In this document: positions 1,808-19,730 of the stretch, piece after piece
How positions within the stretch are numbered: position 1 is the first letter of the stretch
How the letters are laid out: each line of letters starts with the position of its first letter
Assembly: GCA_035528375.1 (NCBI GenBank)
Contig: DATKYS010000077.1
Location: 1 to 21,515 of the forward strand
Direction of reading: 5' to 3'
Length of the DNA: 21,515 nucleotides
DNA from: a bacterium
GTDB taxonomy: Bacteria > RBG-13-66-14
The notes under the pieces: generated by a model
The model's input: only the letters and a program-made list of their open reading frames with translations
Told to the model about the DNA's origin: nothing
The model's database searches: none
Translations under genes and position numbers: made by a program

Positions 1808-1849
1808 CCACCTTACCAGCCCCTCGACCGGCCCACCTTACCAGCCCCT
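1808..1849. repeat. 17-bp direct repeat abutting the mvhA stop codon
   Basis: CCACCTTACCAGCCCCT occurs at 1808-1824 and again at 1833-1849, a 25-bp period. The second copy ends on the first base of the mvhA stop codon (reverse complement of TTA at 1849-1851). A partial third ACCAGCCCC lies just further left. This is one of several gaps where direct repeats touch a gene's 3' end. Confidence 0.85.
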
Positions 1850-3312
1850 TAGCCGTCGCGGCGGACGGTCTGGACCAGCTCGCCGTCGGGGCCGTAAATG
1901 TTCGCGATGAGCGGCGTGTGCCCCAGGGCGTGCGTGGCGCAGGCGTGGCACGGGTCGTAGGGCCGGAAGGCCATCTCGACCATGTTCAGCAGGCCGTCGT
2001 CCACCTTGCCGCCCTTTATCACGGCCTTGGCCGCCTTCTCCACGCTCATGGCCATGGGGGCGGCGTTGTGGTTGGTGGCCACGATGAGGTTGACCCGCGT
2101 GAGGATGCCGTCGGGGTCGGTCCAGTAGTGGTGGATGAGCGTCCCGCGCGGCGCCTCGACGATGCCGACGCCCTCGACCGGGGTCTTGGTCGGGAGGTTG
2201 CGGATGTCGTCGGAGGTGATTTCGTCGTCGGAGAGGAGTGTGACCATCTCCTCGGCGGCCTGGAGCGCCTCGACGAGGCGGGCCCAGTGGAAGGCCAGGG
2301 TGTTGTGGGCCGGCTTGCCGCCCAGGGTGGCGAAGAACTTCTCGTAGTGCTCCTGGGCCTTGGGGGTGCGCATGCCCTCGGAGGCGTTGAGGCGGGCCAG
2401 CGGGGCCACGCGGAAGACGCCGGAGTCGGGGCCGTCAACGAAGCCCTTCCAGCCGACTTTTTTCAGGAAGGGGAAGGTGATGTAGCTCCACGGCTCCACG
2501 TGCTCGGAGATGTATTCGGTGTACTCGTGCGGCTCGAAGAGGGCGACCTCCTTGCCGTCCGGGTCCACGACGCGCAGCCGCCGCTCGTAGAAGTCCACCT
2601 TCTTGTTATCGTCCACCAGGCCCATGTAGTAGGTCTTGTGGGTGTAGCCCTCGGAGAGGATGAGGTCCACGTAGGCCTCGTTGGCCAGGACGATGTCGTC
2701 GAAGGCCGCCAGGGCGAACTCGGCGAAGCCGACGGCCTCCTTGGCCACGGCGAGGAACTGCTGGCGCTCCTCCTCGTCTATGCCGCGGGAGACACCTCCG
2801 GGGAGGCCGAAGACGGGGTGGATCACCTTGCCGCCGATGGTCTGGATGATGTTGCGGGTCTCGCGGCGGATTTTGATGAGCTTGCCGGCGATCTCGAGGC
2901 CGACCTTGCCGATGACGCCGAGGATGTTGCGCTCGGCGGCGGGGGCGGTAGGGCCGACGATGAAGTCGGGCCCGCCCAGGTAGAAGAAGTGGAGGTTGTG
3001 GTCCTCGAAGGTGAAGGCGTTGTAGACCAGCCGACGGATGAGCCAGGCCGCCCGGGTCGGCTCCACCCCCCACAGGTCGTCCAGGCACTTGGTGGAGGCC
3101 GTGTGGTGGGCGGTGGGGCAGACGCCGCAGATGCGCTCGGTTATGCGGGGCATCTCCTCGGAGGGGCGCCCGATGCAGAAGGTCTCGAAGCCCCGGATCT
3201 CGGGCACCTGGAAGAAGGCCCGCTCGACGTCCCCGGCGTCGTTCAGGAAGATTTCTATCTTGCCGTGGCCCTCGAGGCGGGTGATCGGATTGATGGTGAC
3301 CCTTGTGCTCAT
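1849..3312 (-). CDS. mvhA: [NiFe]-hydrogenase large subunit, group 3c (MvhA)
   Basis: This is the 487-residue catalytic subunit that splits H2 at the NiFe centre in the cytoplasm. The N-terminal ligand motif RICGVCPTAH is at 60-69 (Cys62, Cys65, His69). The C-terminal motif DPCHACATH is at 453-461 (Cys455, Cys458, His461). A 26-residue tail after His461 is the expected propeptide for the maturation protease encoded just downstream. No selenocysteine codon replaces the ligands. It overlaps mvhG by 1 nt (TAATG), so the two subunits are translationally coupled. A GGAGTGAGGG Shine-Dalgarno site sits inside the end of mvhG. Group 3c is assigned from the MvhD/MvhG/HdrA neighbours and sequence style. 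A formate-linked or F420-linked relative is less likely because no fdh or frhB gene is in the window. Confidence 0.96.
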   Translation of the reverse strand: MSTRVTINPITRLEGHGKIEIFLNDAGDVERAFFQVPEIRGFETFCIGRPSEEMPRITERICGVCPTAHHTASTKCLDDLWGVEPTRAAWLIRRLVYNAFTFEDHNLHFFYLGGPDFIVGPTAPAAERNILGVIGKVGLEIAGKLIKIRRETRNIIQTIGGKVIHPVFGLPGGVSRGIDEEERQQFLAVAKEAVGFAEFALAAFDDIVLANEAYVDLILSEGYTHKTYYMGLVDDNKKVDFYERRLRVVDPDGKEVALFEPHEYTEYISEHVEPWSYITFPFLKKVGWKGFVDGPDSGVFRVAPLARLNASEGMRTPKAQEHYEKFFATLGGKPAHNTLAFHWARLVEALQAAEEMVTLLSDDEITSDDIRNLPTKTPVEGVGIVEAPRGTLIHHYWTDPDGILTRVNLIVATNHNAAPMAMSVEKAAKAVIKGGKVDDGLLNMVEMAFRPYDPCHACATHALGHTPLIANIYGPDGELVQTVRRDG

Positions 3313-4286
3313 TATCCCTCACTCCTTGGAAGCCCGCGCTTGAGGATCGAGCTGGGCAGGCTGAATCGGTAAAGGGTTCCGGCCGGGTCCACCAAAGCGG
3401 CGGCGGCCGCGGCCGCGTCTTCCTCCGTCTGGGCGCTCCCGGCGGAGGCGATGGCCGACAGGAGCTTGGTCCCCTGATCCAGGGCCTCGGGCGGCGGTCC
3501 GAAGCAGCCGCGGCAGGGCATGTTGGCGCGGATGCAGCGCTCGCCGCAACCGCCCCGCGTCGCCGGCCCCATGCAGACGAAGCCCTGCGCCAGGTAGCAC
3601 TCCTCGGGGTCGGGCTGGCTGGTGGCCACCCGCTTGAACTCGCCGATGGTGATCTTCTCCGGCTTGGTCTCGTTCAGGGGGCAGGTCTCGCAGAGCGACT
3701 TCGAAGGCGCCAGGACCGACCCCTTGGGCGGCAGCTCCCCCTTGAGGATGGCCAGAACGGCGTCCATGATCAGGTTCGGCGGGGGCGCGCACCCCGGGAG
3801 GTAGTAGTCAACGTCTATCACCTCGTCGAGCCGCTTGACGCTGTTCCACACCGCGGGCAGCTCGAGGTCGTAGCCGTCAACGTTGGAGTGGGTCTGGGGC
3901 CGGACCTTGTCCGGGTTGTCCACGGTGACCGAGGTCTCGTACTTGTTGCGGAAGACGTCCTCGGCGGTGGAGAGGTTGACCAGGCCGGGGATGCCGCCCA
4001 GGTGGGAGCAGGAGCCGAAGGCCACGACGAGGCCGCTCTTTTCGCGCAGGAGCTTGACCCACTCCTCGTGCTCGGAGAGGCGGACCGCGCCGTTGATGAA
4101 GCTGACGGCTATCTCGCCGGGCTTCCAGGCTTGGGCGTCCTTGAGCTTGAAGTCCAGGGCCACCGGCCACAGGGCGATGTCCACGGCCTCGACGACCTTG
4201 AGGATGTCCTCGGCCAGGTCCACGACCGCCTCCTCGCATCCGCCGCACGCGCCGCACCAGTAAAACGCTACCTTGGGCTTTGCCAT
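3312..4286 (-). CDS. mvhG: [NiFe]-hydrogenase small subunit (MvhG)
   Basis: This 324-residue iron-sulfur subunit carries electrons from the NiFe site of MvhA towards MvhD. The N-terminal WCGACGGCEE motif (Cys11, Cys14), GSCSH (Cys93) and PGCAPP (Cys166) make up the proximal-cluster ligands. The C-terminal part has CETC (199-202) and a run of cysteines at 230, 238, 247, 251, 258 and 261 for further [4Fe-4S] clusters. No Tat signal is present, which fits a cytoplasmic enzyme. The start at 4286 was chosen because homology begins there (MAKPKVAFYWCGACGG) and a GGGAAGG site lies 9 nt upstream. The open frame continues upstream only as non-homologous sequence in the mvhD gap. The stop overlaps the mvhA start by one base. 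Confidence 0.95.
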   Translation of the reverse strand: MAKPKVAFYWCGACGGCEEAVVDLAEDILKVVEAVDIALWPVALDFKLKDAQAWKPGEIAVSFINGAVRLSEHEEWVKLLREKSGLVVAFGSCSHLGGIPGLVNLSTAEDVFRNKYETSVTVDNPDKVRPQTHSNVDGYDLELPAVWNSVKRLDEVIDVDYYLPGCAPPPNLIMDAVLAILKGELPPKGSVLAPSKSLCETCPLNETKPEKITIGEFKRVATSQPDPEECYLAQGFVCMGPATRGGCGERCIRANMPCRGCFGPPPEALDQGTKLLSAIASAGSAQTEEDAAAAAAALVDPAGTLYRFSLPSSILKRGLPRSEG

Positions 4287-4438: not shown

Positions 4439-4885
4439 CTAGGTCACCGCTTCGTTGATGGCCCGGGTCCGCTCGGTCCAGTTCAGCGGCCCCAGCTCCT
4501 TGATCCGGGCGGTCATGTCCCGGATGGTGTCGGCGAAGAGGTTGCCCTCCGAGGCGGAAATCCAGCGCAGCCAGACGCGGTCGGGCTCGATGCCGAACTG
4601 CCCCAGGAGCTTTACCAGCATCGGGTAGCGGCGCATGGTCCGGTAGTTGCCCACGTCGTAGTGGCAGTCGCCGGGGTGGCAGCCGCCGATGAGCACACCG
4701 TCGGCGCCGTCGGCGAAGGCCTGGACGATGAAGGTGGGGTCCACGCGGCCGGAGCACATGACCTTGATCGCGGTGAGGTTGGGCGGATACTTTATCCGGC
4801 TGATGCCCGCCAGGTCCGCGCCGGTGTAAGTGCACCAGCGGCAGAGGAACCCCACCAGCTTGGGCTCGAAGCTCTCGTCAGCCAT
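4439..4885 (-). CDS. mvhD: MvhD, [2Fe-2S] electron-transfer subunit linking hydrogenase to HdrA
   Basis: This 148-residue protein has the MvhD/VhuD cysteine pattern: FLCRWCTYTGAD (Cys15, Cys18), VMCSGRVDP (Cys44) and GGCHPGDCHY (Cys69, Cys74). In methanogens this subunit carries one [2Fe-2S] cluster and bridges the hydrogenase MvhAG to HdrA. The position here, directly between an hdrA gene and mvhG/mvhA, is the expected one. The ATG at 4885 has a GGGAG site about 8 nt upstream. The start is 446 bp from the hdrA stop. No fused HdrA or MetV tail is seen; the length is standard. Confidence 0.95.
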   Translation of the reverse strand: MADESFEPKLVGFLCRWCTYTGADLAGISRIKYPPNLTAIKVMCSGRVDPTFIVQAFADGADGVLIGGCHPGDCHYDVGNYRTMRRYPMLVKLLGQFGIEPDRVWLRWISASEGNLFADTIRDMTARIKELGPLNWTERTRAINEAVT

Positions 4886-5331: not shown

Positions 5332-8300
5332 CTAGGCGACTGGGACCGCCGGGGGGACATCCATGGGGATCTCGGCGAGCATGCCCTCGACCTCGGCCAG
5401 AATCTGCACGTCCTCGTATCCCTGCTGGCCGGCGGCGCCGGAGGGGCAGCCCGCCACGCAGGTCCCGCAGCCCTTGCACAGCTCCTCGGTCACCACGGAG
5501 ACCTTCTTTTCGGCGTCGAAGGTGATGGCGAGGTAGGGGCAGTTCTGGATGCAGAGCTTGCAGCCGCTGCAGAGGTCCTCGTCTATGGCGGCCTTTATGG
5601 GCTCGAGGACGACCTTGCCCTTGTCGAGGAGGGAGAGTGCCGCCGCGGCCGCCGCCGCGCCCTGGGCCACCGAGTCGGGGATGTCCTTGGGCCCCTGGCA
5701 CGCGCCGGCGATGAACACGCCGTCCGTGGCAGTGTCCACCGGGGCCAGCTTGGGGTGCTTCTCCAGGAAGAACTGGCCCTGCATGCAGGAGAGGTGGAGG
5801 GTCTTGGCGACCTTGTCGGCGTCGGCCCGGGGCTTCAAGCCGCCGGAGAGGATGACCATGTCCACCGGGATGCGCCGGGTTCCGCCCAGGAGGGTGTCCT
5901 CGGCGACGACCACCAGCCGGCCCTTCTCCTCGGGGCCCTCCCAGGCGTCCGTCACCTCGGCCGCCTTGCCGCGGATGAAGTGCACACCCTCGGCGAGCAG
6001 GCGCTTGTAGAACTCCTCGTAGCCCTTGCCGAAGGCGCGCATGTCTATGTAGAAGTCGTAAACCTCGGCCGAGGTGTGATCCCTGACCAGGTAGGCGAAT
6101 TTCAGCGAGTACATGCAGCAGACGCGGGAGCACCAGGCGTTGTGGTTCTCGTCACGGCTGCCGATGCAGTGGAGGATGGCCACCGCTTTCGGCTCGCGGC
6201 CGTCGGCGGTCAGGATGTGCCCCTCGGTGTACCCGCTGGCGTTGCAGAGCCGCTCGAACTCCAGGCCGGTGAGCACGTCGGGGAAGCGCTCCCAGCCGAA
6301 CTGCGGCGTCTCGCGCACGTCGAAGGGCTCGAAGCCGGTGGCGACGATGATGGCGCCGACGTCCACCTCGCGGATGGTGTCGGTCATCCGGTGGTCTATG
6401 GCCTTGGCCTCGCACTTGGTCTCGCAGAGGCGGCACTCGGAGCAGACGGAGCAGTTCAGGCAGCGCAGGACCTCGGCGGTGACCATCTCCTCGTCGAGGC
6501 CGGTGTTCACCTCATCGAAGGTCGCCAGGCGCTCCGGCATGGGCAGGCTCGGCATCCGGACGCGGGGACGGAGGACGCGGGCCTCGCGGACCGGGGCCCT
6601 CTCCGGCTCGGGGAGAATCCGTCCCTCGGCCAGGTCCACGCCGCGGATGAAGCGGTCCGCCGATTCGGCGGCGCGGTGGGCGTCGGCGATGGCCTCGACG
6701 ATGGAGGCCGGCCCGCGCACCAGGTCGCCGGCGGCGAAGACGCCGTCCTTGTTGGTGGCCCCCGTGACCGGGTCCACCACCACCGAGCCCCAGGAGCTGG
6801 TCGTCAGGCCCCATTTTTTATAGACCTCGACGTCGGCGGTCTGGCCGATGGCCGTTATCATGGAGTCCGCGTCGGTCTCGAACTCGGAGCCCTCGATGGG
6901 GACGGGGCGGCGGCGGCCCGAGGAGTCGGGCGCGCCGAGCTCCATGCGGATGCACCGCAGGACCAGCCGGCCGTCGTCGCCGCGACGCAGGCTCACCGGG
7001 GCGGTGAGGAACTCGAAGCGGACCCCCTCCTCTTTGGCCTCTTCGATTTCGGTCGGCTCGGCGGGCATCTCCCGCTCGGTGCGGCGGTAGAAGCAGTGGA
7101 CGGAATCGGCGTCCAGGCGCAGGGCGGTGCGGGCCACGTCCATGGCCACGTTTCCGCCGCCGACGACGACGACTTTCTGGCCCAGGTCGGGGCGGCCGCC
7201 GCGGTTGACCTGCTCCAGCACGTCCATGCCGAAAAAGACGCCCTCGGACTCGATGCCGGGGATGGGCATTTTCGTGCTCACGGTGGCGCCGGTGGCCACA
7301 ATGACCGCCTTATAGCCGCCGGAGAGGAGGCCGTCCAGGGTGACGTCCCTGCCGAGGGCCGTGCCGGTCTCGACCTCGAAGCCCCACTTCCTGACGTTGG
7401 CGATCTCGCGGTCAATGACCGCCTCGGGGAGGCGGAAGTGGGGGATGTGGCTGCGCATGACGCCGCCGAGCTTCTCCGCCGAATCGAAGAGGGTGACCTG
7501 GAGGCCGAGCTTCCGCAGGTCCTGCGCGGCGGTGAGGCCGGCGGGACCGCCGCCCACCACGGCCACCTTCTCGGGACGCTCCTCGGCGGGGAGCTCGGGG
7601 GCGTACTCGGCGCCCGAGGAGACCTCCCAGTCGGCCAGGAAACGCTTGACGGCGGCGATGGAGAGCGGCTGGTCAACCTCGCCGCGGTTGCAGTCCTTCT
7701 CGCAGGGGTGGTTGCAGACGCGCCCGAGGATGCCGGGGAACGGCACCCGCTCACGGGCCAGGGCCAGGCCCTCGGCGAACTTGCCCACCGAGGCCAGGGC
7801 CACGTAGCCGTGGGCGTTGCAGTCCGCGGGGCAGGCGATCTTGCAGGGCGACACGCCCTGTTTGTCTATGGTGAAGGTGTTGGGCACGGCCTGGGGGAAG
7901 AGGCGGTAGACGGCCTTCCGGTCGGCGTGGCCCTGCTCGAACTCGTTGGGGACCGCGACGGGGCAGACCTGGGTGCAGTCGGAGCAGCCGGTGCAGTCCT
8001 TGGTGACGTAGCCGGCCTTTTGGCGGACCTTGACCTTGAAGTTGCCCACGTAACCCGCGACCTCTTCCACCTCGGAGTAGGTGAGGAGCTCGATGTTGGG
8101 GTGCTGGCCCACGGAGACCATCTTCGGGGTGAGGATGCAGGCCGCGCAGTCCATGGTGGGGAAGGTCTTGTCGAACATGGCCATGTGGCCGCCGATGGAG
8201 GGCTCCTTCTCGACGAGGTAAACCTTCCGCTGCGCCTCGGCGAGCCTGAGCGCGGCCTCGATGCCGGCGATCCCCGCCCCCACGACCATGGCGTCGGGGT

Positions 8301-8733
8301 GAACCGGGACCTCTTTCTCTTCGAGGGACCGGTGGCGGCTCACGCGGAGCACCGCGGCGCGGATGAGACGCTTGGCCTTCTCCGTCGCCCGGACCGTGTC
8401 GTCGTGCACCCAGGAACAGTGCTCCCGGATGTTGGTCATCTGGAAGAGGTAGGGGTTCATCCCCGCGTCTTCCACCGCCCCGCGGAAGGTGACCTCGTGC
8501 ATCAGCGGCGAGCAGGAGGAGACCACCACGCGGTTCAGCTTGAACTCCTCGATGTCCTTCTGTATGAGCTCCTGACCGGGCTCGGAGCACATGTACTTGT
8601 ACTCTTTGGCCACGACGACGCCGGGCAGGCCGGCGGCGAACCGGGCCACCGCCTCCACGTCCACCACGTGCGAGATGTTGGTCCCGCAGCGGCAGACGTA
8701 GACGCCTATCCGTTCCTTGCCGTTGTCGCTCAT
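5332..8733 (-). CDS. hdrA: HdrA with an internal GltD-type NAD(P)H oxidoreductase domain
   Basis: This 1133-residue protein is the flavin bifurcation subunit with an extra flavoprotein domain inside. Residues 1-260 are the HdrA N-terminal half: VCRCG (14-17), YMCS, SSCSP, the FAD motif VGAGIAGIEA (151-160), GGHMA, DCAAC, and a ferredoxin motif CTGCSDCTQVC (247-257). Residues about 296-745 are a GltD/NfnB-like module: cysteines at 297, 301, 305 and 340, 344, 348, a first Rossmann motif VVGGGPAG (392-399), a second VVGGGNVAMD with FYRRTEREMP (548-557), and FAAGD. Next comes a Cys cluster CLNCSVCSECRLCETKC (758-774). Residues about 790-1113 are the HdrA C-terminal half: IIVATG, CSRVCCMYSLKFA, VFIAGACQGPKDIPDSVAQG, and two ferredoxin motifs at 1055-1065 and 1086-1096. 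The ATG has an AGAGGG site. The GltD FYRR motif suggests NADP(H); this is inference. Confidence 0.93.
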   Translation of the reverse strand: MSDNGKERIGVYVCRCGTNISHVVDVEAVARFAAGLPGVVVAKEYKYMCSEPGQELIQKDIEEFKLNRVVVSSCSPLMHEVTFRGAVEDAGMNPYLFQMTNIREHCSWVHDDTVRATEKAKRLIRAAVLRVSRHRSLEEKEVPVHPDAMVVGAGIAGIEAALRLAEAQRKVYLVEKEPSIGGHMAMFDKTFPTMDCAACILTPKMVSVGQHPNIELLTYSEVEEVAGYVGNFKVKVRQKAGYVTKDCTGCSDCTQVCPVAVPNEFEQGHADRKAVYRLFPQAVPNTFTIDKQGVSPCKIACPADCNAHGYVALASVGKFAEGLALARERVPFPGILGRVCNHPCEKDCNRGEVDQPLSIAAVKRFLADWEVSSGAEYAPELPAEERPEKVAVVGGGPAGLTAAQDLRKLGLQVTLFDSAEKLGGVMRSHIPHFRLPEAVIDREIANVRKWGFEVETGTALGRDVTLDGLLSGGYKAVIVATGATVSTKMPIPGIESEGVFFGMDVLEQVNRGGRPDLGQKVVVVGGGNVAMDVARTALRLDADSVHCFYRRTEREMPAEPTEIEEAKEEGVRFEFLTAPVSLRRGDDGRLVLRCIRMELGAPDSSGRRRPVPIEGSEFETDADSMITAIGQTADVEVYKKWGLTTSSWGSVVVDPVTGATNKDGVFAAGDLVRGPASIVEAIADAHRAAESADRFIRGVDLAEGRILPEPERAPVREARVLRPRVRMPSLPMPERLATFDEVNTGLDEEMVTAEVLRCLNCSVCSECRLCETKCEAKAIDHRMTDTIREVDVGAIIVATGFEPFDVRETPQFGWERFPDVLTGLEFERLCNASGYTEGHILTADGREPKAVAILHCIGSRDENHNAWCSRVCCMYSLKFAYLVRDHTSAEVYDFYIDMRAFGKGYEEFYKRLLAEGVHFIRGKAAEVTDAWEGPEEKGRLVVVAEDTLLGGTRRIPVDMVILSGGLKPRADADKVAKTLHLSCMQGQFFLEKHPKLAPVDTATDGVFIAGACQGPKDIPDSVAQGAAAAAAALSLLDKGKVVLEPIKAAIDEDLCSGCKLCIQNCPYLAITFDAEKKVSVVTEELCKGCGTCVAGCPSGAAGQQGYEDVQILAEVEGMLAEIPMDVPPAVPVA

Positions 8734-8999
8734 CGGTTCAACCCTCTGGGAGATCGGTAGGTTTGACGCTCACCGGAACGTTGATAAAAATTTTTTGGAG
8801 CCGGTCTTTCACGGGAAACCGCGCGCTTCCGAAGGGCGGTCTTCCGATCCGGACGGTCGCTTCCGGGTTTACTTCCCTCTCATCTCGATTGACGCACCCG
8901 AGGCGGACGGGCCGTTTCGCCGCGCACCAGAGCGTTACTTCCGGGTCCGCACTACGCTCGACCCCGACGGTCGTCGTTATCGGGGATCGGAGCTTCGAC
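8734..8999. other. Non-coding gap with an AT-rich patch upstream of hdrA
   Basis: No convincing gene is present. The hdrA Shine-Dalgarno site (reverse complement near 8741-8750) is clear. An AT-rich patch, GATAAAAATTTTTTGG (8783-8798), stands out in very GC-rich DNA. It lies about 50-65 bp upstream of the hdrA start and could be part of a promoter, but I find no convincing -35/-10 pair on the minus strand. Confidence 0.4.
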
Positions 9000-9304
9000 A
9001 CTCACCCCCCGGCCCCGTGGGTCACAGTCACCAAGACGTGATTGACCTCGTGGCGCCCCAACTCACCCCCCGGTCCCGTGGGTCACAGGCCCTTGACCCC
9101 GCAGGGCGTATCCGGCCATTAACTCACCCCCCGGCCCCGTGGGTCACAGGCCATCTGTGGTCTAGCCCGGTCGGATGCTCCAACCCGCCCCCCGGCCCCG
9201 TGTGATTACACGCCCACACGGTATTCCAGAGCGGCCACCCGCTACCCACCCCTCGGCCCCCCCGCCGATGCCGTCTCAGTCGGGAGCGGAATCCTGTCGG
9301 CCGG
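9000..9304. repeat. Repeat array with exact 61-bp period, five units, last two degenerate
   Basis: A 28-bp word beginning ACTCACCCCCCGG and ending GTGGGTCACAG occurs at 9000-9027, 9061-9088 (one mismatch) and 9122-9149. Degenerate copies start at 9183 (about 19 of 28 matches) and 9244 (about 15 of 28). The starts are exactly 61 bp apart throughout. The 33-bp stretches between copies differ from each other. The word has an imperfect dyad (CT..ACCC / GGGT..AG). The geometry recalls a short CRISPR array, but no cas gene is present and similar drifting repeats fill other gaps of this window, so I keep the neutral type. Confidence 0.85.
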
Positions 9305-9345
9305 AAAAATCCCCGCTGACGCCCGCTCTATCGGGAGCGGCTTCC
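9267..9345. repeat. Degenerate 28-bp direct repeat, 51-bp period
   Basis: Segments 9267-9294 and 9318-9345 match at 21 of 28 positions, sharing the block TCGGGAGCGG. They overlap the tail of the 61-bp array and continue the repetitive character of the 717-bp gap up to the next gene's 3' end. Bases 9346-9450 show no gene. Confidence 0.65.
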
Positions 9346-9450
9346 TTACCGCCGCGAAACCCCTCTCTCCGCCGATCCGCTCGACGGGGCTACGGGCGCA
9401 ACGATAACGCACGAATATCAACCGCCCCGCCGACCCGCGTCCGGGACGAC

Positions 9451-11220
9451 CTACAGGCGCAGCATGCCGCCCAACTCGGCGTAGATCTGCGTGTCCGAGT
9501 AGTGCCTCTGGCGGGAGGCTCCGGAGGGGCAGCCGGCCACGCAGGTGCCGCAGCCCTTGCACAGCACGCTGTTGACCACGGAGACCTTCTTCTCCGCGTC
9601 GTAGGAAATCGCCGTGTAGGGGCAGTTCTGGATGCAGTACCGGCAGCCGGAGCAGAGCTCCTCGTCAATGACCGAGGTGATTGGCTCGATGGCGACCTGG
9701 CCCTGGCCGATGAGTGAGAGGGCCTCGGCGGCGGCGGCGGCTCCCTGGGCCACGGAGTCCGGGATGTCCTTGGGCCCCTGGCAGGCGCCGGCGATGAACA
9801 CGCCGTCGGTGGTGGTGGCCACGGGGGCCAGCTTGGGGTGCATCTCCTGGAAGAAGCCCTGGCTGCCGCAGCCGATGCCCACGATGCGGCGCACCTCCTC
9901 GGCGTCGGAGCGCGCCTCCAGGGCGGTGGAGAGGATGACCATGTCCACCGGCACCTCGCGCGTGACGCCCAGAAGGGTGTCCTCGGCGACCACCTTGAGC
10001 CTGTCGCCGGCCGGCGTGACCTCGGCGGCCTTGCCGCGGATGAAGTGCACACCCTCGGAAAGCAGGCGCTTGTAGAACTCCTCGTAACCCTTGCCGAAGG
10101 CGCGTATGTCTATGTAGAAGCAGTAGACCTCGGCGTCGGTGTGCTCCTTGACCAGGTGGGCGAATTTCAGGGAGTACATGCAGCAGACGCGGGAGCAGTA
10201 GGAATGGTACCGCTCGTCGCGGGAGCCGATGCAGTGGAGGATGGCGATGGCCTCGGGCGTGCGGCCGTCCTCGAGCTCGATGTGGCCGCCGGTCATGCCG
10301 TCGGCCCGGGCCATGAACTCGAACTCCATGCCGGTGATGACGTTGGGCAGCCGGCGGTAACCCAGGGCGGGGATGACCGAGGGGTCGAAGACCTGCATCC
10401 CGGTGGCGACGATTATCGTCCCCACATCGAGCCGGACCTCCTCGTCGGTGGAGTCGAGGCTCACGGCGTCCTTGCCGCAGGCCTCCTCGCAGATGCGGCA
10501 GGCGTCAACGGCGTTGCCGGCGGCGCTCTGCCGGAAGTGGATGCAGTCATCCTCGTAGACCGTGGGCACGTTGGGGACCATCTGCTTGGTGACGAAGCGC
10601 ACGGCCGAGTTGGAGGCCAGTGAGAGCTCGGGGTGGATGACCTTGCGGCCGTAACGGTCGTAGACCCTGGCCGAGCCTGTGGGGCAGATGCTGGAGCAGG
10701 AGCCGCAGGCGATGCAGTCCGGCGAGAGCGCGTCGTAGGGCGCCGAGACGTAGCTCCTGGAGCCGCGCTCGTTGATGGCGATGGCGAAGGCCTTTACCCG
10801 CTCCTGGCAGATGCGCGTGCAGAGTCCGCAGAGGATGCAGCGGTTCGCGAGGGCCTCCTCGGTGGGCTCGCCGAAGCGCCTGGGGTCGGCCCCGTACTCC
10901 GCCCCCAGCTCCTGGAGGCGTTCCACGGACGGGGCCTTGGCCAGCAGGAGCTCGAGGGTGAACTTCCGGGACCGGCGCACGTCCCCGTCGCCGGTGACGA
11001 CGTTCATCCCCTCGGTCGCCACCAGGTTGCAGGAGGTGGTCAGCTTGGCGCCGTCGCCCTCGCCGACCTTGACCGTGCACATCCGGCATCCGGCGTAGGG
11101 CTCGAGGAAATCGGAGTAGCACAGGGTCGGGATGTCTATCTCCAGGGCCCTGGCCGCCGCCAGGACGGTCGTACCCTCCTCGACCTCCACGCTCTGCCCG
11201 TCTACGGTCAGCTTAACCAT
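9451..11220 (-). CDS. NuoG/HoxU-like iron-sulfur protein fused to the C-terminal half of HdrA
   Basis: This 589-residue fusion has two parts. The N-terminal part has a plant-type [2Fe-2S] domain (Cys34, Cys45, Cys48, Cys64) and two [4Fe-4S] motifs, CILCGLCTRIC (128-138) and CIACGSCSSIC (169-179), as in HoxU, NuoG and HydA. The His-x3-Cys ligand set that normally lies between them is missing; the segment reads LLLAKAPSVERLQELG. After a linker with cysteines at 226, 241, 244 and 248, residues about 264-575 match the HdrA C-terminal half: IIVATG, LHCIGSRDE, CSRVCCMYSLKFAHLV, FIAGACQGPKDIPDSVAQG, and two ferredoxin motifs (523-533, 554-564). The dinucleotide-binding first half of the HdrA FAD domain is absent. 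It probably receives electrons from NuoF and joins a separate HdrA N-terminal half. An AAAGGATG site precedes the ATG. Confidence 0.9.
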   Translation of the reverse strand: MVKLTVDGQSVEVEEGTTVLAAARALEIDIPTLCYSDFLEPYAGCRMCTVKVGEGDGAKLTTSCNLVATEGMNVVTGDGDVRRSRKFTLELLLAKAPSVERLQELGAEYGADPRRFGEPTEEALANRCILCGLCTRICQERVKAFAIAINERGSRSYVSAPYDALSPDCIACGSCSSICPTGSARVYDRYGRKVIHPELSLASNSAVRFVTKQMVPNVPTVYEDDCIHFRQSAAGNAVDACRICEEACGKDAVSLDSTDEEVRLDVGTIIVATGMQVFDPSVIPALGYRRLPNVITGMEFEFMARADGMTGGHIELEDGRTPEAIAILHCIGSRDERYHSYCSRVCCMYSLKFAHLVKEHTDAEVYCFYIDIRAFGKGYEEFYKRLLSEGVHFIRGKAAEVTPAGDRLKVVAEDTLLGVTREVPVDMVILSTALEARSDAEEVRRIVGIGCGSQGFFQEMHPKLAPVATTTDGVFIAGACQGPKDIPDSVAQGAAAAAEALSLIGQGQVAIEPITSVIDEELCSGCRYCIQNCPYTAISYDAEKKVSVVNSVLCKGCGTCVAGCPSGASRQRHYSDTQIYAELGGMLRL

Positions 11221-11290
11221 GAGATCATCCTTTCGGTGGAGACAAGGGGGGCCGCCGGGCCGTTACTCCGCTTCACTATTCGCGGTCTCT

Positions 11291-11346
11291 CGTAGGGGCG
11301 ACCCTCTGCGGTCGCCCGCGGGCAGGGACAGAGCCCCGCCCCTACG
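11291..11346. repeat. Palindromic element CGTAGGGGC...GCCCCTACG
   Basis: Outer arms CGTAGGGGC (11291-11299) and GCCCCTACG (11338-11346) are exact reverse complements. An internal hairpin GGGCGACC (11296-11303) / GGTCGCCC (11310-11317) has a CTCTGC loop. The element sits in the 157-bp gap between the NuoF-GltD and NuoG-HdrA genes and belongs to the same family as 1620-1687 and 19673-19730. Confidence 0.8.
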
Positions 11347-11377
11347 GCTCGGTTAAACCCCTCGCCCCCTTCTCCGA

Positions 11378-14300
11378 CTAACGGCGTTCTTCTTCCTCGG
11401 CCTCGTGCTCCCAGCGCCAGTCGCAGCGCAGGCACCTCTTGGCCTCGTTGACGGCGGCGGCCTCGTCGAGGACGAGCTCGACCGACTCGAAGTTCTCGAT
11501 CCTACGGGCAACCGGCTGCAGGGGCGTCTCGGGACGGTTGACGATGGTCTCGACCTCCTCGGCCGTCATCTCGTAGGGCTCGACGTGTGCCACGGGCTTC
11601 GTCAGGGTGTACTCGGGGGTCATGTCGCCGCCCCGCAGGTAGCGGTCCATGTACTTGGCGGCCAGCTTCCCGTGCCCCATGGCGTCGGTGGCGAAGTAGG
11701 GCCCGGCGACGACGTCGCCCCCGGCGAACACGCCGGGCACGTCGGTCATCATGGTGCCGGGGTCCGCCTCGAGGGTGTTCCTCGGGGTGAGCTTGAAGCC
11801 GTCGGGGAGGAAGGCGAGGTCCGGCTTCTGGTTGACGGCCGGGAAGAGGTTGTCGAGCTCGACGGTGAACTCGGTGCCCTCGAGGACCACCGGCTCGCGC
11901 CAGCCGGTGGGGTCCACGCCCCGCATCTCCACCCGCCGCAGCTCGAGCGCCTTCAGGCGCCCCTTCTCGGCGATGATTCTCGAGGGCGCGCAGAGGTAGA
12001 CCACCTCGATCCCCTCGTCCAGGCCGGCCTGTACCTCCAGCTCGTCGGCGGGAATCTCGAAGTGGGTCCGGTTGTAGAAGACGGTGACCTGGAGGGCGCC
12101 GAGGCGCCGGGCGGCCCGGGCGGCGTCCAGGGCGGTGTTGGTGCCGCCGATGATGCCCACCCGCTCGCCGACGGTGGTCCGGCCCCCGACGTTGACCTCC
12201 CGGAGGAATTCGATGGCGTCCTGGACGCCCTCCACCTCCTCGCCGGGCAGGCCCAGCGGGATGCCGGCGTGGGCGCCGGTGGCGACGAAGACGGCCTTGT
12301 AATCCCGGCGCAGGTCATCGAAGGCGATGTCTTTGCCGATCATTACGCCGGTCTTGATCTCCACGCCGATCCGGCGGACCCGCTCGACCTCCCGGGCGAT
12401 GAGCTCGCGGGGGAGGCGGTAGGCCGGGATGCCGGAGTAGAGCATCCCGCCGGCGACGGCGTCGGCCTCGAAGACGGTGACCCGGTAGCCCAGGCGGGCC
12501 AGGTCCCAGGCGCAGCTCAACCCGGCGGGTCCGGCCCCGATGACGGCGACGGGCTCGAGGTTGCCCGCCCCCTTGGGCGGCGCGTAGTCCTTGCCGTGCT
12601 TCTCCAGGACGAACCGCTTGAGGGCCCGGATGGAGATGGGGTCGGCCACGTTCCCCGTGGTGCAGCGGAACTCGCAGGGGTGCGGGCAGATGCGGGAGAG
12701 GATGCCGGGGAAGGGCGTGGCCCGGTAGATGATGTCCAGCGCCTTGTCGAACTTGCCCAGGGCGATGTAGGCGATGTAGCTCGGGGCGTCCATGCCCACC
12801 GGACAGGTGTGGTGGCAGGGGGCCGAGACCATTCTCTTGCACACCGACCCGGGGCACTTCTTGTACTTGATGTGGGAGTCGTAGTCCTCGCGGTAGTAGC
12901 GCAGGGTGGTCAGGAGCGGGTTGGGCGCCGTCTGGCCCAGGCCGCACAGCGAGTTCTGTTTGACGAAGGTGCCCAGGTCCTCCAGGAGCTCCAGGTCCCC
13001 CTCCTCGCCCTCGCCCCGGGAGATTTTCTCCAGAATCGCCAGCATGTGGGGGAGGCCCTCGCGGCAGGGGGTGCACTTGCCGCAGGATTCTTCCTTGGTG
13101 AAGGAGAGGAAGTACTTCGCCATGTCCACCATGCAGGTGTGCTCGTCCATGACGATCATGCTGCCGGAGCCCATCATGGAGCCGGCCTCGCTGAGGCGGT
13201 CGAAGTCCACGGGGATGTTGAGGAGCTTGGCGGGCAGGCAGCCGCCGGACGGTCCGCCGGTCTGGACCCCCTTGAACTCGCGCCAGCGGGTGATGCCGCC
13301 GCCCATGCGGAACACGAGGTCCCAGAGCGGCGTGCCCATCGGCACCTCGATGAGCCCGGTGTTCTTGATGTTGCCCACCAGGGAGAAGACTTTGGTCCCC
13401 TTGCTCCCCGGGGATCCGATGGAGCTGAACCAGTCGGCGCCGCGGCTGAGGATGACCGGGATGTTGGCCCAGGTCTCCACGTTGTTGATGATGGTGGGCT
13501 TGCCCCAGAGGCCGGAAATGGCGGGGTATGGGGGCCGGGGGCGCGGGGTGCCGCGCTGGCCCTCGATGTAGAAGATGAGGGCGGTCTCCTCGCCGCAGAC
13601 GAAGGCGCCGGCGCCCTGGACCACGTGGATGTCGAAGTTTAGGCCGGTACCCAGGATGTCGGAGCCCAGCACACCGTACTCGCGCAGGACGGCGACGGAC
13701 TCGAGGAGGAAGCGGCGGACGCGGGGGTAGTCGCTGCCCACGTAGATGTAGGCGTCGGAGACGTTCCCGATGGCGTAGGCGCCGATGATCATGCCCTCGA
13801 GGACCGAGTACGGGTCGCCCTCGAGGACTGAGCGGTCCATGTAGGCGCCGGGGTCGCCCTCGCTGGCGTTGCAGACGATGTGCTTCACGCCGCCGGGCGC
13901 CCCGCGGGCTATCTTCCACTTGCGTCCGGTGGGGAATCCGCCGCCGCCGCGACCGCGCAGACCCGAGGCCAGGACCGCCTCGATGACCTCCTCGGGTTTC
14001 ATGGTGGTCAGGACCTTGTGGAGAGTGTAGAGCCCGCCGCGGGCCACGTACTCCTGGAGGCTCACCGGCTTGATGTAGCCGCAGTTGCGGGTCGCGATGC
14101 GGAGCTGCCCCTTGAAGAATCCCACGTCCTCCATGAGCGGCACGTTTTTATACTCCCCGTTGCCGCCGGAGACGTCGTAGGCGACGCGCTCGTCGTTGAG
14201 GACGATGTGCTCGCCCTCCAGGCGGAAGAGGGCCCAGTCCTCGATGACGCGCCCCTCCTTCACCGCCCGCAGGAGCTCGTCCACCCTGTCCTCGGTGATG

Positions 14301-14566
14301 TTCCCGTAGACGACGCGGGGCCGTCCGGGGACCCAGACGTCCACCAGCGGCTCCATCTGGCAGAAGCCGTAGCAGCCCGAGTCCTCGACGACGATGTCCA
14401 GCCCCTCGCGCTCGGCCCCCTCGATGAGCCGCCGGGCGACGTCGAGCGCCCCGTTGGCGATGCCGCAGGTGGAAGAGCCGACGGAAATCCGTATCCTGTC
14501 GGGATAGAGGGATTCACGGCCCTTTTTCTTCAGGTCGTCGAGATCCTTGACGCTCGTAATCCTCAT
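11378..14566 (-). CDS. nuoF: NuoF-type NADH:acceptor flavoprotein fused to a GltD domain
   Basis: The product has 1062 residues. The N-terminal thioredoxin-like domain has STCGIA (Cys34) and SGCYGFC (Cys65, Cys69), as in long NuoF/HydB proteins. The NuoF core has the FMN/NADH motif RGRGGGGFPTGRKW (204-217), NASEGDPGAYMDR, GAGAFVCGEETAL, PTIINNVET, an SLBB-type segment, and the N3 [4Fe-4S] ligands SCGKCTPC (Cys495, 498, 501) with LCGLG (Cys541). The C-terminal 2x[4Fe-4S] ferredoxin of HydB is replaced after KCPGSVCKRMVSAP by a GltD module: Cys584, 588, 627, 631, 635, Rossmann motifs VIGAGPAG (674-681) and IIGGTNTALD, and FAGGD. It ends in RCLRC. The second Rossmann domain reads FYNRTHFE instead of the usual YRRT, so its pyridine nucleotide preference is doubtful. 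I chose ATG 14566 (AAGGTG site, 34 bp after nuoE) over 14614, which would overlap nuoE. Confidence 0.92.
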   Translation of the reverse strand: MRITSVKDLDDLKKKGRESLYPDRIRISVGSSTCGIANGALDVARRLIEGAEREGLDIVVEDSGCYGFCQMEPLVDVWVPGRPRVVYGNITEDRVDELLRAVKEGRVIEDWALFRLEGEHIVLNDERVAYDVSGGNGEYKNVPLMEDVGFFKGQLRIATRNCGYIKPVSLQEYVARGGLYTLHKVLTTMKPEEVIEAVLASGLRGRGGGGFPTGRKWKIARGAPGGVKHIVCNASEGDPGAYMDRSVLEGDPYSVLEGMIIGAYAIGNVSDAYIYVGSDYPRVRRFLLESVAVLREYGVLGSDILGTGLNFDIHVVQGAGAFVCGEETALIFYIEGQRGTPRPRPPYPAISGLWGKPTIINNVETWANIPVILSRGADWFSSIGSPGSKGTKVFSLVGNIKNTGLIEVPMGTPLWDLVFRMGGGITRWREFKGVQTGGPSGGCLPAKLLNIPVDFDRLSEAGSMMGSGSMIVMDEHTCMVDMAKYFLSFTKEESCGKCTPCREGLPHMLAILEKISRGEGEEGDLELLEDLGTFVKQNSLCGLGQTAPNPLLTTLRYYREDYDSHIKYKKCPGSVCKRMVSAPCHHTCPVGMDAPSYIAYIALGKFDKALDIIYRATPFPGILSRICPHPCEFRCTTGNVADPISIRALKRFVLEKHGKDYAPPKGAGNLEPVAVIGAGPAGLSCAWDLARLGYRVTVFEADAVAGGMLYSGIPAYRLPRELIAREVERVRRIGVEIKTGVMIGKDIAFDDLRRDYKAVFVATGAHAGIPLGLPGEEVEGVQDAIEFLREVNVGGRTTVGERVGIIGGTNTALDAARAARRLGALQVTVFYNRTHFEIPADELEVQAGLDEGIEVVYLCAPSRIIAEKGRLKALELRRVEMRGVDPTGWREPVVLEGTEFTVELDNLFPAVNQKPDLAFLPDGFKLTPRNTLEADPGTMMTDVPGVFAGGDVVAGPYFATDAMGHGKLAAKYMDRYLRGGDMTPEYTLTKPVAHVEPYEMTAEEVETIVNRPETPLQPVARRIENFESVELVLDEAAAVNEAKRCLRCDWRWEHEAEEEERR

Positions 14567-14600
14567 ATTCTTCACCTTGATTGTTCCCGACCTGGGAGGG

Positions 14601-15095
14601 TCAGACGTTTGCACTGTCGGCCCTCCTCAGGGCGCCGATGACTTCCCGGACCTTTGATTTGGTGACGTGGCCGTAGAACTTGTCCCGCTTGGTGATGACG
14701 GGCCCCAGGGCGCACGCGCCGAGGCAGTGCACCTCCTCCAGGGAGAAGGCGCCGTCCTCGGTGACCTCGCCGGGCCCGATACCCAGCTCGCGCTTCAGGT
14801 CGTCCAGCACGAACATGGAACCGCGGACCATGCAGGCCGTGCCGACGCAGCACCGGATGTGGTTGCGTCCCTTGGGCTCCAGGGAGATGGCCGAGTAGAA
14901 AGTGGCCAGGCTGTAGATGACGCTTATGGGGACCCCGGTCTCGCGGACGATGAACTCCACGGCTTCCCGGGGCAGGTAGTAGTAGACGTCCTGGACCCCG
15001 AGCAAAAGCGCGATGAGGGTCAACTCGCCCCGGTTGTAGTTATCAATGAGGGGCCGGGCGAGCTCCAGATCCAGCTTGATCGTGTCCTTATGCAC
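14601..15095 (-). CDS. nuoE: NuoE-like [2Fe-2S] thioredoxin-fold subunit
   Basis: This 164-residue protein is the 24-kDa-type partner of NuoF. The ligands CVGTAC (Cys83, Cys88) and CLGAC (Cys124, Cys128) give the C-x4-C...C-x3-C pattern, and the helical N-terminal part with VPISVIYSLATFY is typical. The start is GTG at 15095; no ATG lies nearby and homology begins at once. The Shine-Dalgarno-like AAAGGAC upstream lies inside one copy of the local direct repeat. It is followed after 34 bp by the NuoF-GltD gene. The normal role is to pass electrons from, or buffer, the NuoF FMN site in NADH oxidation or NAD+ reduction. Confidence 0.95.
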   Translation of the reverse strand: MHKDTIKLDLELARPLIDNYNRGELTLIALLLGVQDVYYYLPREAVEFIVRETGVPISVIYSLATFYSAISLEPKGRNHIRCCVGTACMVRGSMFVLDDLKRELGIGPGEVTEDGAFSLEEVHCLGACALGPVITKRDKFYGHVTKSKVREVIGALRRADSANV

Positions 15096-15104
15096 TTTCG
15101 TGTC

Positions 15105-15269
15105 CTTTCGCGGAGGGTCCGACGATCGGCCCCTTCAAGTCCTTTCGCGGAGGGTCGTCCACGCGCCTATGAGCGGCCCCTTCCAGCCCTTTCGCGGAGT
15201 GGCGCGCCTCTGAGACGAGCGTCACGCCGATGAGCGGCCCCTTCCAGCCCCCTCGCGGATTGGCGCGCC
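15105..15269. repeat. Direct repeats in the HdrA(N)-nuoE gap, abutting the HdrA(N) stop
   Basis: A CTTTCGCGGA word occurs at 15105, 15142 and 15189, with a diverged copy at 15250. A longer 39-bp unit (15170-15208 and 15231-15269, a few mismatches) contains GAGCGGCCCCTTCCAGCCC and GGCGCGCC; its period is 61 bp. The last copy ends directly at the HdrA(N) stop codon (15270-15272). On the minus strand each word reads as CGCGAAAGG, and the copy nearest nuoE supplies its Shine-Dalgarno-like sequence. Confidence 0.85.
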
Positions 15270-16148
15270 CTAGGCCCGGGGCGCCACGGGGACCTTCGCC
15301 TCGGACGGGTCCTTCTCGTTTATCAGCCGGCCGCCGATCTCCACGACCTTCAGATCGGGGTAGATGACCGCCGGGCAAGCCGCCACGCAGTCGCCGCAGG
15401 AGTTGCACAGCGCGGTGTCCACGTGCCGGGCCTTCTTCCTGACCGTCACCGTGAAGTTGCCCACGTAGCCGTCCACCTTGGTGACCTCGGACCAGGTCAG
15501 AAGCTCGATGTTGGGGTGGATGCCCACGTCCACCATCTTGGGCGTCAGGATGCAGGCGGCGCAGTCCAGGGTGGGGAAGGTCTTGTCGAAGAAGGCCATG
15601 TGTCCGCCCACCGAGGGCTCCTTCTCCACCAGGTAGACCTTCTGACCGGCTATTGCGCACTTGAGGGCGGCCTCGATGCCGGCGATTCCGGCGCCGATGA
15701 CCAGGACCGCCGGGTTCACGTCCACCTTCTCCGGGAAGAGCTCCTCCTGGTTGGAGACCCGGAAGACCTCGGCGGCTATCAGGCGCTTGGCCTTCTCCGT
15801 CGCCCGGGCCTTGTCCGTGTGGACCCAGGAGACCTGCTCCCGGATGTTGGCCATGGCGAACAGGTAGGGGTTTATCCCCGCCTCGGCCACCGTGCGGCGG
15901 AAGGTGCGCTCGTGCATCAGGGGCGAGCAGGAGGAGACCACCACGTGGGTGAGGTGCAGCTCCTCGATGTCCTTCTGGATGAGTGCCTGCCCCGGATCGG
16001 AGCACATGTACTGGTAGTGCCGGGCCACGCGCACGCCGGGCAGGGTGCCGGCGTACTCGGCCACCGCCTTGACGTCCACCGTCTGCGAGATGTTGGAGCC
16101 GCAGTGGCAGACGTACACGCCTATTCTTTTGCTGCCGTTTTCGCTCAT
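15270..16148 (-). CDS. hdrA: HdrA N-terminal half only (split HdrA)
   Basis: The product has 292 residues and contains just the first part of HdrA: VCHCG (14-17), YMCS (Cys49), SSCSP (Cys74), the FAD motif IGAGIAGIEA (151-160), GGHMA, DCAAC, and a ferredoxin motif CNSCGDCVAAC (248-258). Residues 8-258 align without gaps to the start of the intact HdrA-GltD protein. It then ends with a short tail (KVPVAPRA) and a TAG stop. The downstream DNA holds repeats, not a frame-shifted remainder, so this looks like a genuine split and not a sequencing error. The missing C-terminal half is fused to the NuoG-like protein two genes on, so the two may build one FAD site together; this is inference. I chose ATG 16148 because homology starts there. 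The frame runs back to 16277 without similarity. Confidence 0.9.
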   Translation of the reverse strand: MSENGSKRIGVYVCHCGSNISQTVDVKAVAEYAGTLPGVRVARHYQYMCSDPGQALIQKDIEELHLTHVVVSSCSPLMHERTFRRTVAEAGINPYLFAMANIREQVSWVHTDKARATEKAKRLIAAEVFRVSNQEELFPEKVDVNPAVLVIGAGIAGIEAALKCAIAGQKVYLVEKEPSVGGHMAFFDKTFPTLDCAACILTPKMVDVGIHPNIELLTWSEVTKVDGYVGNFTVTVRKKARHVDTALCNSCGDCVAACPAVIYPDLKVVEIGGRLINEKDPSEAKVPVAPRA

Positions 16149-16254: not shown

Positions 16255-17133
16255 TTACGGAAGGACGGCCTCGGCATGGGTGAGGCTGTCTTTCAGCATG
16301 AGCTCCTTGGGGGTGAGCCCCAGAGCCCGGCCCATGAGCTGGGTGAAGTACAGCACCGGTATCTGCACGTCCTCGCCGAGGTGGCGGCTGACCTTTTTCT
16401 GGTAGGACTCCAGGGTCACGTGGCACAGGGAGCAGGCGGTGACGATGCAGTCCGCCCCGGAGTCCTTGGCGTTCTTCAAGAGCTTGCCGACCAGGGTGCG
16501 GCCGACGTGAGGCTGGGTGGTCATCAGGATGCCGCCGCAGCACTTGGACTTGAGGGGGAAGTTCACCGGCTCGGCGCCCGTCCAGGCCACCAGGTCGTCC
16601 AGGGTGTGGGGCCACTCCTCGTCGTCGAACTCGCCGTAGGGGCGGCCGATCTGGCAGCCGTAGTACGGGGCGACCTTGAGGCCGGTCAGGGGCGTCGTAA
16701 CCGCCGCCCGGACCCGCTCCTCGCCGACGTCGTTGGCCAGGACGTCCAGAACGTGGCGCACGTTGACCTTGCCCGAGTACGTCAGGCCGCCGGTGGCCAG
16801 GGCCTCGTTAATGTCCTCGCGGAGCTTGGGGTTCGAGGCGATGTACTTCTTGGCCTTGGCCAGGATGACGTAGCATCCGCTGCAGCTCGTGACGATGTCG
16901 GGCCGGCCGGTCTTCTCCGCCAGGGCCAGGTTGCGGGCCGAGAGGACGAAGGCCTTCCGCGCGTCAATGGCGATATAGTTGGAGGCGCCGCAGCAGTTCC
17001 AGTCCTCGAGCTCCACCAGCTCGATCCCGAGCTTCCGGGTCACGCCCCTGACCGAGGCGTCGTACGCCCGGCTGGTCGTCGTCTGCGAGCAGCCCGGGTA
17101 GTACGTGTATTGGATACCGTTAGGGACGGCCAT
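16255..17133 (-). CDS. hdrB: HdrB, catalytic CCG-domain subunit of heterodisulfide reductase-like complex
   Basis: The 292-residue protein has two CCG domains. The first has YYPGC (Cys15), NCCGAS (Cys47, Cys48) and CSGC (Cys84, Cys87). The second has YYGCQ (Cys160), KCCGG (Cys198, Cys199) and CSLC (Cys234, Cys237). In methanogens the two CCG domains bind noncubane [4Fe-4S] clusters that reduce CoM-S-S-CoB. Bacterial homologues act on other, mostly unknown, acceptors. No methanogenesis gene is in the window, so the substrate here is open. It starts 3 bp after the hdrC stop, so the two genes are co-translated. The length is typical for the family. Confidence 0.94.
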   Translation of the reverse strand: MAVPNGIQYTYYPGCSQTTTSRAYDASVRGVTRKLGIELVELEDWNCCGASNYIAIDARKAFVLSARNLALAEKTGRPDIVTSCSGCYVILAKAKKYIASNPKLREDINEALATGGLTYSGKVNVRHVLDVLANDVGEERVRAAVTTPLTGLKVAPYYGCQIGRPYGEFDDEEWPHTLDDLVAWTGAEPVNFPLKSKCCGGILMTTQPHVGRTLVGKLLKNAKDSGADCIVTACSLCHVTLESYQKKVSRHLGEDVQIPVLYFTQLMGRALGLTPKELMLKDSLTHAEAVLP

Positions 17134-17136
17134 CGT

Positions 17137-17712
17137 CTATTTCCTTTCCTCCATAACGGCCATCATCTTCTGAAGGCCTTTGATGCCCTTTATCTTGTGC
17201 GCCCCCAGATCCAGACGGCCCCTGACCAACATCTTCGAGGCGAAACCGAGCTGACCCAGGGCTTTGAAGATGCCCGTGCGGAAGTAGAACTTCAGCATGA
17301 GCAGGAACTCCGCGGAGAGGCCGTACTTGTCTATGATGGAGTTGAAGGCGGTGGCCAGCTCGTGCCCCTTCTTGATCCGCGGGATGATGCCCTCGTCCTC
17401 GCCCAGCCGCTTGAGCTGGTACATGATGTCGGTCCAGGGGATGCCGGCGGGGCATCGCACCGTGCAGGAGTAGCACGAGGCGCACAGCCACACGGAATTG
17501 CTCACCAGCACCTCGTGGATGATGTCGGCGCGCAGGGCCGCCACTATCTGCCGCGGGGTGAAATCCATGGCGTAGCCGGTCGGGCAGGAGGCCGAACAGG
17601 TGCCGCACTGGATGCACATGTTGACCTTGTCCCCGTTGGGGATGAGCATCACCTCTTCCAGGAATTTCCTGGTCAGCTCCCGGCCCTCTACCTTGCCGTC
17701 TATAACCCGCAT
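17137..17712 (-). CDS. hdrC: HdrC, two-[4Fe-4S] ferredoxin-like subunit
   Basis: The 191-residue protein has two classical ferredoxin motifs, CIQCGTCSASCP (Cys33, 36, 39, 43) and CASCYSCTVRCP (Cys77, 80, 83, 87), followed by a helical C-terminal region. HdrC carries electrons from HdrA to HdrB. It is the first gene of the minus-strand operon. The Shine-Dalgarno site GGAGG is strong, about 8 nt before the ATG. The upstream 630 bp holds a promoter (18056-18084) and a Rex-like operator (17820-17837). The last residues are basic (KMMAVMEERK) and the length is usual. Confidence 0.95.
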   Translation of the reverse strand: MRVIDGKVEGRELTRKFLEEVMLIPNGDKVNMCIQCGTCSASCPTGYAMDFTPRQIVAALRADIIHEVLVSNSVWLCASCYSCTVRCPAGIPWTDIMYQLKRLGEDEGIIPRIKKGHELATAFNSIIDKYGLSAEFLLMLKFYFRTGIFKALGQLGFASKMLVRGRLDLGAHKIKGIKGLQKMMAVMEERK

Positions 17713-19596: not shown

Positions 19597-19672
19597 GGCT
19601 GCTCCTCATTTAAGGAGGTGTTGCTCAACGTGGCCGTCTGTAGGGTCGGAGGTCCGTCCCCTTTAATCCCCC

Positions 19673-19730
19673 CCGTAGGGACGGGGCTACGTCCCCGTCC
19701 GCGGGCGACCGTGGACGGTCGCCCCTACGG
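19673..19730. repeat. Palindromic element CCGTAGGG...CCCCTACGG
   Basis: The outer arms are imperfect (19673-19680 and 19722-19730). Inside are GACGGGG / CCCCGTC (starting near 19680) and a perfect 10-bp hairpin GGGCGACCGT (19703-19712) / ACGGTCGCCC (19715-19724). It interrupts the rnfG-rnfE gap and belongs to the same family as 1620-1687 and 11291-11346. Confidence 0.75.

Follow-up and report, generated by a model that had tools for sequence, protein, structure and literature searches.

An HdrA encoded in two halves around NuoEFG genes in a bacterial HdrABC-MvhADG operon

Gene content of the locus

The window analyzed here spans all 21,515 bases of contig C77, one of 144 contigs in a draft genome of 2.6 Mb. 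On its minus strand it carries, in order, rnfD (partial), rnfG, rnfE, rnfA, hdrC, hdrB, a stand-alone gene for the N-terminal half of HdrA, nuoE, nuoF fused to gltD, and a nuoG-like gene fused to the C-terminal half of hdrA (Table 1). A gap of 717 bp separates this series from an intact gene of the order HdrA-GltD-HdrA, which is followed, after a further 446 bp, by mvhD, mvhG, mvhA and hycI. The HdrABC-MvhADG set (hdrA, hdrB, hdrC, mvhA, mvhD and mvhG) is thus complete in the window on one strand. Judged from its sequence, mvhD-mvhG-mvhA-hycI is a [NiFe] hydrogenase of the HdrABC-MvhADG type, which a preliminary description of this DNA had not included. The intact HdrA gene is flanked by GC-rich, repeat-rich gaps (8734-9450, and on the side of 5005-5142, where a 74-bp unit is present 1.9 times). 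Upstream on the same strand, rnfA, rnfE, rnfG and probably rnfD occupy 18344-21513, rnfD being called from its position beside rnfG; rnfB lies on another contig (C110). Rfam and tRNA searches of the window gave no matches.

Table 1. Features of the window, with the sequence evidence for each assignment
Feature	Position	Strand	Evidence
hdrC	17137..17712	-	HdrC model TIGR03290 (E 9e-23); Fer4_8
hdrB, two CCG domains	16255..17133	-	PF02754 (E 9e-29); TIGR03288 (E 7e-62)
Stand-alone HdrA N-half, 292 aa	15270..16148	-	HdrA2 model positions 1-259 (E 5e-108)
nuoE, [2Fe-2S] thioredoxin-like	14601..15095	-	PF01257 (E 3e-42)
NuoF part of NuoF-GltD	12824..14614, likely start 14566	-	Nuo51 and NADH_4Fe-4S domains; NuoF (E 3e-134)
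GltD part of NuoF-GltD fusion	11378..12823	-	Fer4_20 and Pyr_redox_2; motif table; ends RCLRC
NuoG-like part of NuoG-HdrA(C)	10651..11220	-	Fer2_4 (E 3e-17); [2Fe-2S] and 2x[4Fe-4S] motifs
HdrA C-half of NuoG-HdrA(C) fusion	9451..10650	-	HdrA2 model positions 241-637 (E 7e-120)
Intact type III HdrA, 1133 aa	5332..8733	-	N-half ~8733-7879, GltD ~7866-6440, C-half ~6439-5332; domain models
mvhD	4439..4885	-	PF02662 (E 6e-51)
mvhG, [NiFe] hydrogenase small subunit	3312..4286	-	PF01058 (E 2e-21); start at MAKPKVAF
mvhA, [NiFe] hydrogenase large subunit	1849..3312	-	PF00374 (E 5e-36); CGVC and CxxC motifs present
hycI-type hydrogenase maturation protease	1075..1539	-	PF01750 (E 2e-8)

The preliminary description had assigned the order HdrA N-half, GltD, HdrA C-half to the 1133-aa protein, and domain models confirmed this. 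It had also placed the same modules in separate genes upstream (an N-half alone at 15270-16148, GltD on NuoF, and a C-half on a NuoG-like protein); these coordinates and module calls hold. The breakpoints do coincide with the edges of GltD, at a site inside the inserted ferredoxin domain of HdrA, and both GltD modules end in the RCLxC motif that had been pointed out (RCLRC at nt 11437 and RCLNC at nt 6465).

The stand-alone N-half contains the N-terminal domain, the GxGxxG FAD motif (nt 15695) and the first motif of the inserted ferredoxin domain (nt 15407). The ATG at 16148 was taken as its start because the frame is closed just upstream in a close relative (L047). The NuoG-HdrA(C) fusion (9451-11220) is a protein of 589 aa. 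Its NuoG-like part, which carries motifs for two [4Fe-4S] clusters and one [2Fe-2S] cluster, runs straight into the inserted ferredoxin domain, and its HdrA C-half carries the second inserted-ferredoxin motif, the bifurcation Lys and Glu, the FAD segment GPKDIPD and the C-terminal 2x[4Fe-4S] domain. The best solved relative of the window NuoF is 7t2r_B, over residues 47-597.

Distribution of the split hdrA gene

In a sample of 386 diverse genomes, mostly one or two per family, the full-length NuoG-HdrA(C) fusion was found in 17, that is, the window genome and at least 16 others. These comprise 10 of the 14 Coatesbacteria-phylum genomes sampled and seven genomes outside the phylum, the latter at 40-54% identity. 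Candidatus Coatesbacteria RBG_13_66_14 encodes a protein 93% identical to the 589-aa one, which places the source of the window among the relatives of Coatesbacteria. When the 386 genomes were searched with the N-half, short stand-alone frames appeared in exactly the same 17 genomes; elsewhere the N-half was part of a long HdrA, except for two short frames at contig ends. Many of the other HdrA frames in this search (~830-860 aa) have one in-frame TGA, possibly encoding selenocysteine (e.g., G010:C19:10810-11586).

For a draft genome in 144 contigs, an assembly error or frameshift splitting one gene had to be considered. The preliminary description had suggested looking for the same gene order in relatives. 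The split order recurs in 17 genomes, among which G012 and G013 are each assembled as a single contig; this excludes such an artefact, and we give this explanation practically no weight.

The operons take three forms. Form 1 is hdrC-hdrB-hdrA(intact)-mvhD-mvhG-mvhA-hycI (L082, L084, L086, L089 and L090). L085 resembles it, except that no match of its own was obtained for hdrB, perhaps because the gene is joined to hdrC. Form 2 is otherwise the same operon with GltD inside HdrA (type III; L060 and L081). Form 3 is hdrC-hdrB-hdrA(N)-nuoE-nuoF-nuoG/hdrA(C)-mvhD-mvhG-mvhA (L049-L053, L055, L056 and L076-L078); at several of these loci a gene or two is fragmentary, beyond the stretch analyzed or missed by the module search, the last chiefly in the case of mvhG. 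At L054, ~3 kb lie between the N-half and nuoE, which counts against the explanation favored below. L057, L079 and L080, in three genomes, carry the N-half and NuoE as one fused protein. These fusions, the NuoG/C-half fusion and the operon forms together indicate that the nuoEFG genes sit inside hdrA, with each half fused to a NuoEFG subunit in at least some genomes. Because most split operons have no intact HdrA alongside, the halves occupy the HdrA slot of an otherwise ordinary HdrABC-MvhADG operon. In the window genus (G001-G003 as well) and in G007, the split form and a type III HdrA stand side by side. At L058, one 1086-aa protein (8904-12161) joins NuoG to an HdrA C-part and to another set of HdrA N- and C-parts, and a shortened N-half stands separately upstream.

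Residues and models of the two halves

The HdrA of the split operons is not one continuous polypeptide, being encoded by two genes with nuoE and nuoF between them. Both products align to the same solved HdrA (8rvu), the N-half to residues 12-266 and the C-half to residues 303-651. Invariant in the split sets are the N-terminal cysteines, the glycines of the FAD Rossmann motif (GxGxxG), the ribose-binding acid, the equivalents of E356 and K409, and all cysteines of the inserted and C-terminal ferredoxin domains. The tested residues are invariant in 16 of 17 N-halves, the exception being the shortened N-half of L058, and in 18 of 18 C-halves. The Glu356 and Lys409 equivalents are 53 residues apart in the split C-halves, as in the reference (spacing from PMC12054007).

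Modeled alone, the N-half is confidently predicted to about residue 240 and superposes on residues 2-240 of 5odc (Z 24.5), with a disordered ferredoxin tail. The C-half model matches residues 260-643 of 5odh (Z ~26), though loosely (rmsd near 10 over the whole length), because the model does not fix how the parts of the C-half lie relative to one another. Confidence in the C-half modeled alone is lowest at residues 187-218 and 459-513, and the latter region contains the invariant FAD-binding segment. This low confidence fits a missing N-half partner, but an alignment of only 18 sequences is shallow and may be part of the cause. In the model, the NuoG part superposes on 9bov_A (Z 19.8, rmsd 2.5 over 188 residues) and also matches 9mqx_A. 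Foldseek on the whole 589-aa model gave poor rmsd values owing to the low confidence of the HdrA part; VIA-align on the confident parts gave a clearer result. In a typical 2x[4Fe-4S] fold, each motif lends its last cysteine to the other cluster. Were the split HdrA to share ligands in this way, both chains would be required for each cluster of its inserted domain.

The halves might nevertheless stay apart in the cell, the N-half having a docking or regulatory role and NuoG-HdrA(C) being only an electron relay with a function of its own, and bifurcation being left to another HdrA; many split genomes do hold other HdrA proteins elsewhere. We regard this as improbable, since the motifs of one FAD site are invariant across two polypeptides, and since the halves co-occur without exception in 17 genomes and are, in most split operons, the only HdrA beside hdrBC and mvhADG. 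The same observations, together with the N-half/NuoE fusions and the complementary ranges of the single-chain models, support what the preliminary description had proposed, namely a second HdrA-type unit in which two polypeptides, separated by NADH modules, would together restore the FAD domain.

Origin of the GltD modules and exchange of the HdrA halves

The window NuoF lacks the C-terminal 2x[4Fe-4S] ferredoxin domain; its Zn-linker runs directly into GltD. Seven of the split operons examined (L050, L057, L058, L076 and L078-L080) have the ordinary NuoF ferredoxin tail and are without GltD. The preliminary description had proposed a phylogeny of the two GltD domains of the window. At 42% identity to each other, they do not come out as sisters in the tree, where the NuoF-GltD modules form one group (support 83/68) apart from the type III GltD. 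The NuoF-linked GltD of the window (11378-12823) has kept the FAD motif and, like that of G001, lost the usual NADPH motifs: GGTNTA stands in place of GGGNxA and YNRTHFEIPA in place of YRRTxxEMPA. The type III GltD of the window, in contrast, retains the NADPH motifs. Two NuoF-GltD proteins of ~1060 aa, encoded away from the split operon (L106 in G012 and L108 in G007), are the nearest kin of the operon NuoF-GltD group.

These results bear on the earlier reading of the split form as an "exploded" HdrA-GltD-HdrA. Descent of the split operon by decay or dispersal of a type III protein would account for the identical module order and cut site. However, the GltD modules share 42% identity and are not sisters, several split operons have no GltD, the proteins of L106 and L108 are closer to the operon NuoF-GltD than the type III GltD is, and GltD takes the place of the NuoF ferredoxin tail. 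Such a descent is therefore very unlikely. The colinear order is better explained by the entry of two different cassettes into the same HdrA site than by one protein having been taken apart, and the shared RCLxC ending is not counted as common descent because the GltD modules are not sisters.

The trees of the N-halves and C-halves are incongruent in part, and a single clade is rejected for the C-halves of the main split set (p 0.0007). L057, L079 and L080 group with the intact HdrA of L064 in both trees. The split C-half of G007 groups with its own type III copy, which, together with the incomplete congruence, indicates that halves have been exchanged. The incomplete congruence counts against the assembly proposed below. 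A single origin of all split forms was rejected for the N-halves (p 0.005) and for the C-halves (p 1.5e-6). Two or more origins of the split, or else an exchange of pieces between copies, would account for this. Exchange also extends to the insert: between the type III HdrA of the window (5332-8733) and that of G003 (L048:2786-6196), the HdrA halves are 80-87% identical and GltD only 46%, indicating that the GltD insert was swapped as a cassette within the genus.

Proposed assembly and electron route

Gene order, fusion, residue conservation and co-occurrence, along with the single-chain models, point to an HdrABC-MvhADG complex in which hdrA is cut within the inserted ferredoxin domain and the gap is filled by the genes of the NADH-oxidizing NuoE-NuoF-NuoG module. 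The free N-half and the NuoG-fused C-half would reassemble into one HdrA. We hold this explanation to be the probable one, with appreciable room for doubt. The N-half would provide the Rossmann motif, the C-half the bifurcation Lys/Glu and the segment closing over the FAD, and both together the inserted ferredoxin domain. The FAD of the assembled HdrA would exchange electrons with H2 via MvhA-MvhG-MvhD, with HdrC-HdrB as the high-potential side (probably serving a disulfide-type acceptor), and with NAD(H) through NuoG and NuoF.

According to cryo-EM work (PMC12350162), electrons leave HdrA at its inserted ferredoxin domain, which is also where polyferredoxin docks. As this exit domain is the split site and NuoG runs into it, we infer a route from NuoF-FMN through NuoG and the inserted ferredoxin to the HdrA FAD. 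The position of the cut would tie the NADH module covalently to the reported low-potential exit. In type III HdrA, electrons from the nucleotide have been suggested to enter at the inserted-ferredoxin site as mid-potential donor (PMC12054007), and by analogy this could hold for the split HdrA too. The data do not settle which way electrons flow, and the flow is probably reversible; of the possible reactions, we favor one in which H2 and NAD(H) would be coupled to the HdrB acceptor. In principle, H2 can reduce NAD+ without any bifurcation, and the physiological sense of the split complex is for this reason not obvious.

In the window genus, a further feature may be added to the reassembled HdrA. 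The operon has one hdrBC and one mvhADG set for two HdrA equivalents, HdrABC is dimeric in the solved complexes (PMC12350162), and the same gene pairing is found in G001-G003 and G007. The split and type III HdrA could thus form the unequal halves of the usual HdrA dimer, sharing HdrBC and MvhADG. Such an asymmetric dimer, with an NADH port on the split HdrA and an NADPH port on the type III HdrA, would be one machine balancing H2, NADH, NADPH and a disulfide-type acceptor. The retention of NADPH motifs in the type III GltD and their loss from the NuoF-linked GltD fit this division of labor. On the other hand, another hdrCB pair is present on contig C40, and we advance the asymmetric dimer only tentatively, as the less likely state of affairs. 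The pairing is in any case not needed for function, since most other genomes have the split form without an adjacent type III HdrA.

If the reassembly of the two halves is correct, a bifurcating FAD site would be composed of two polypeptides, with an NADH module permanently wired into the low-potential exit of HdrA. This exit would then be an evolutionary cassette site: empty in type I, filled by GltD in type III, with GltD swapped within a genus, and filled by the NuoEFG set in the split form. Because the partner of the port is fixed covalently here, the split form would offer a natural way to tell which electrons pass through which HdrA port. Genome annotation that proceeds gene by gene would miss split HdrA proteins.

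Comparison with known systems

The preliminary description had known of no described complex with exactly this arrangement. For the split form this stands: no description of a split HdrA or a NuoG-HdrA fusion was found in the literature searched, the HdrA-module review of Appel et al. 2021 lying outside the search. The intact form, however, is already published as type III HdrA (PMC12054007).

A comparable combination of modules is seen in class II benzoyl-CoA reductase BamB-I (PMC13328260), in which the HdrA/HdrBC-like BamE and BamD occur with the NuoEFG-like BamGHI. The part of that report considered here describes no split HdrA or NuoG-HdrA fusion, and the partner in the window is a [NiFe] hydrogenase instead; BamB/BamC tungsten subunits were absent from the scanned window proteins.

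The HdrABC-MvhADG complexes of methanogens (5odc, 8rvu) and the corresponding bacterial operons resemble the window system in subunits, order of parts, and FAD and cluster residues. They differ in that the window-type HdrA consists of two polypeptides, with nuoE, nuoF and nuoG between and the C-half fused to NuoG. The 1133-aa protein of the window belongs to type III HdrA, in which GltD is inserted at the inserted-ferredoxin site (PMC12054007) and which has been reported with mvhADG in Bathyarchaeota (PMC12054007). In the split form this site holds NuoEFG, not GltD, and the polypeptide is broken.

Compared with the Bfu family and HydB, the window NuoF has the same N-terminal thioredoxin-like, FMN and [4Fe-4S] domains. 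The redox cofactors of the Bfu family, including the C-terminal ferredoxin clusters, have been described as constant (PMC9304861; PMC10482914). The BfuB ferredoxin tail (clusters B3 and B4) is kept in other split operons, whereas it is replaced by GltD in the window. The Stn transhydrogenase carries GltD on its NuoG-like subunit (PMC10482914); in the window, GltD is on NuoF and NuoG is fused to HdrA(C). Unlike in Bfu, HydABC and Stn, the window NuoG leads into HdrA and not into a hydrogenase, formate dehydrogenase or GltD domain. The HdrA split by an NADH module is a real arrangement and a variant of the HdrABC-MvhADG and Bfu kinds.
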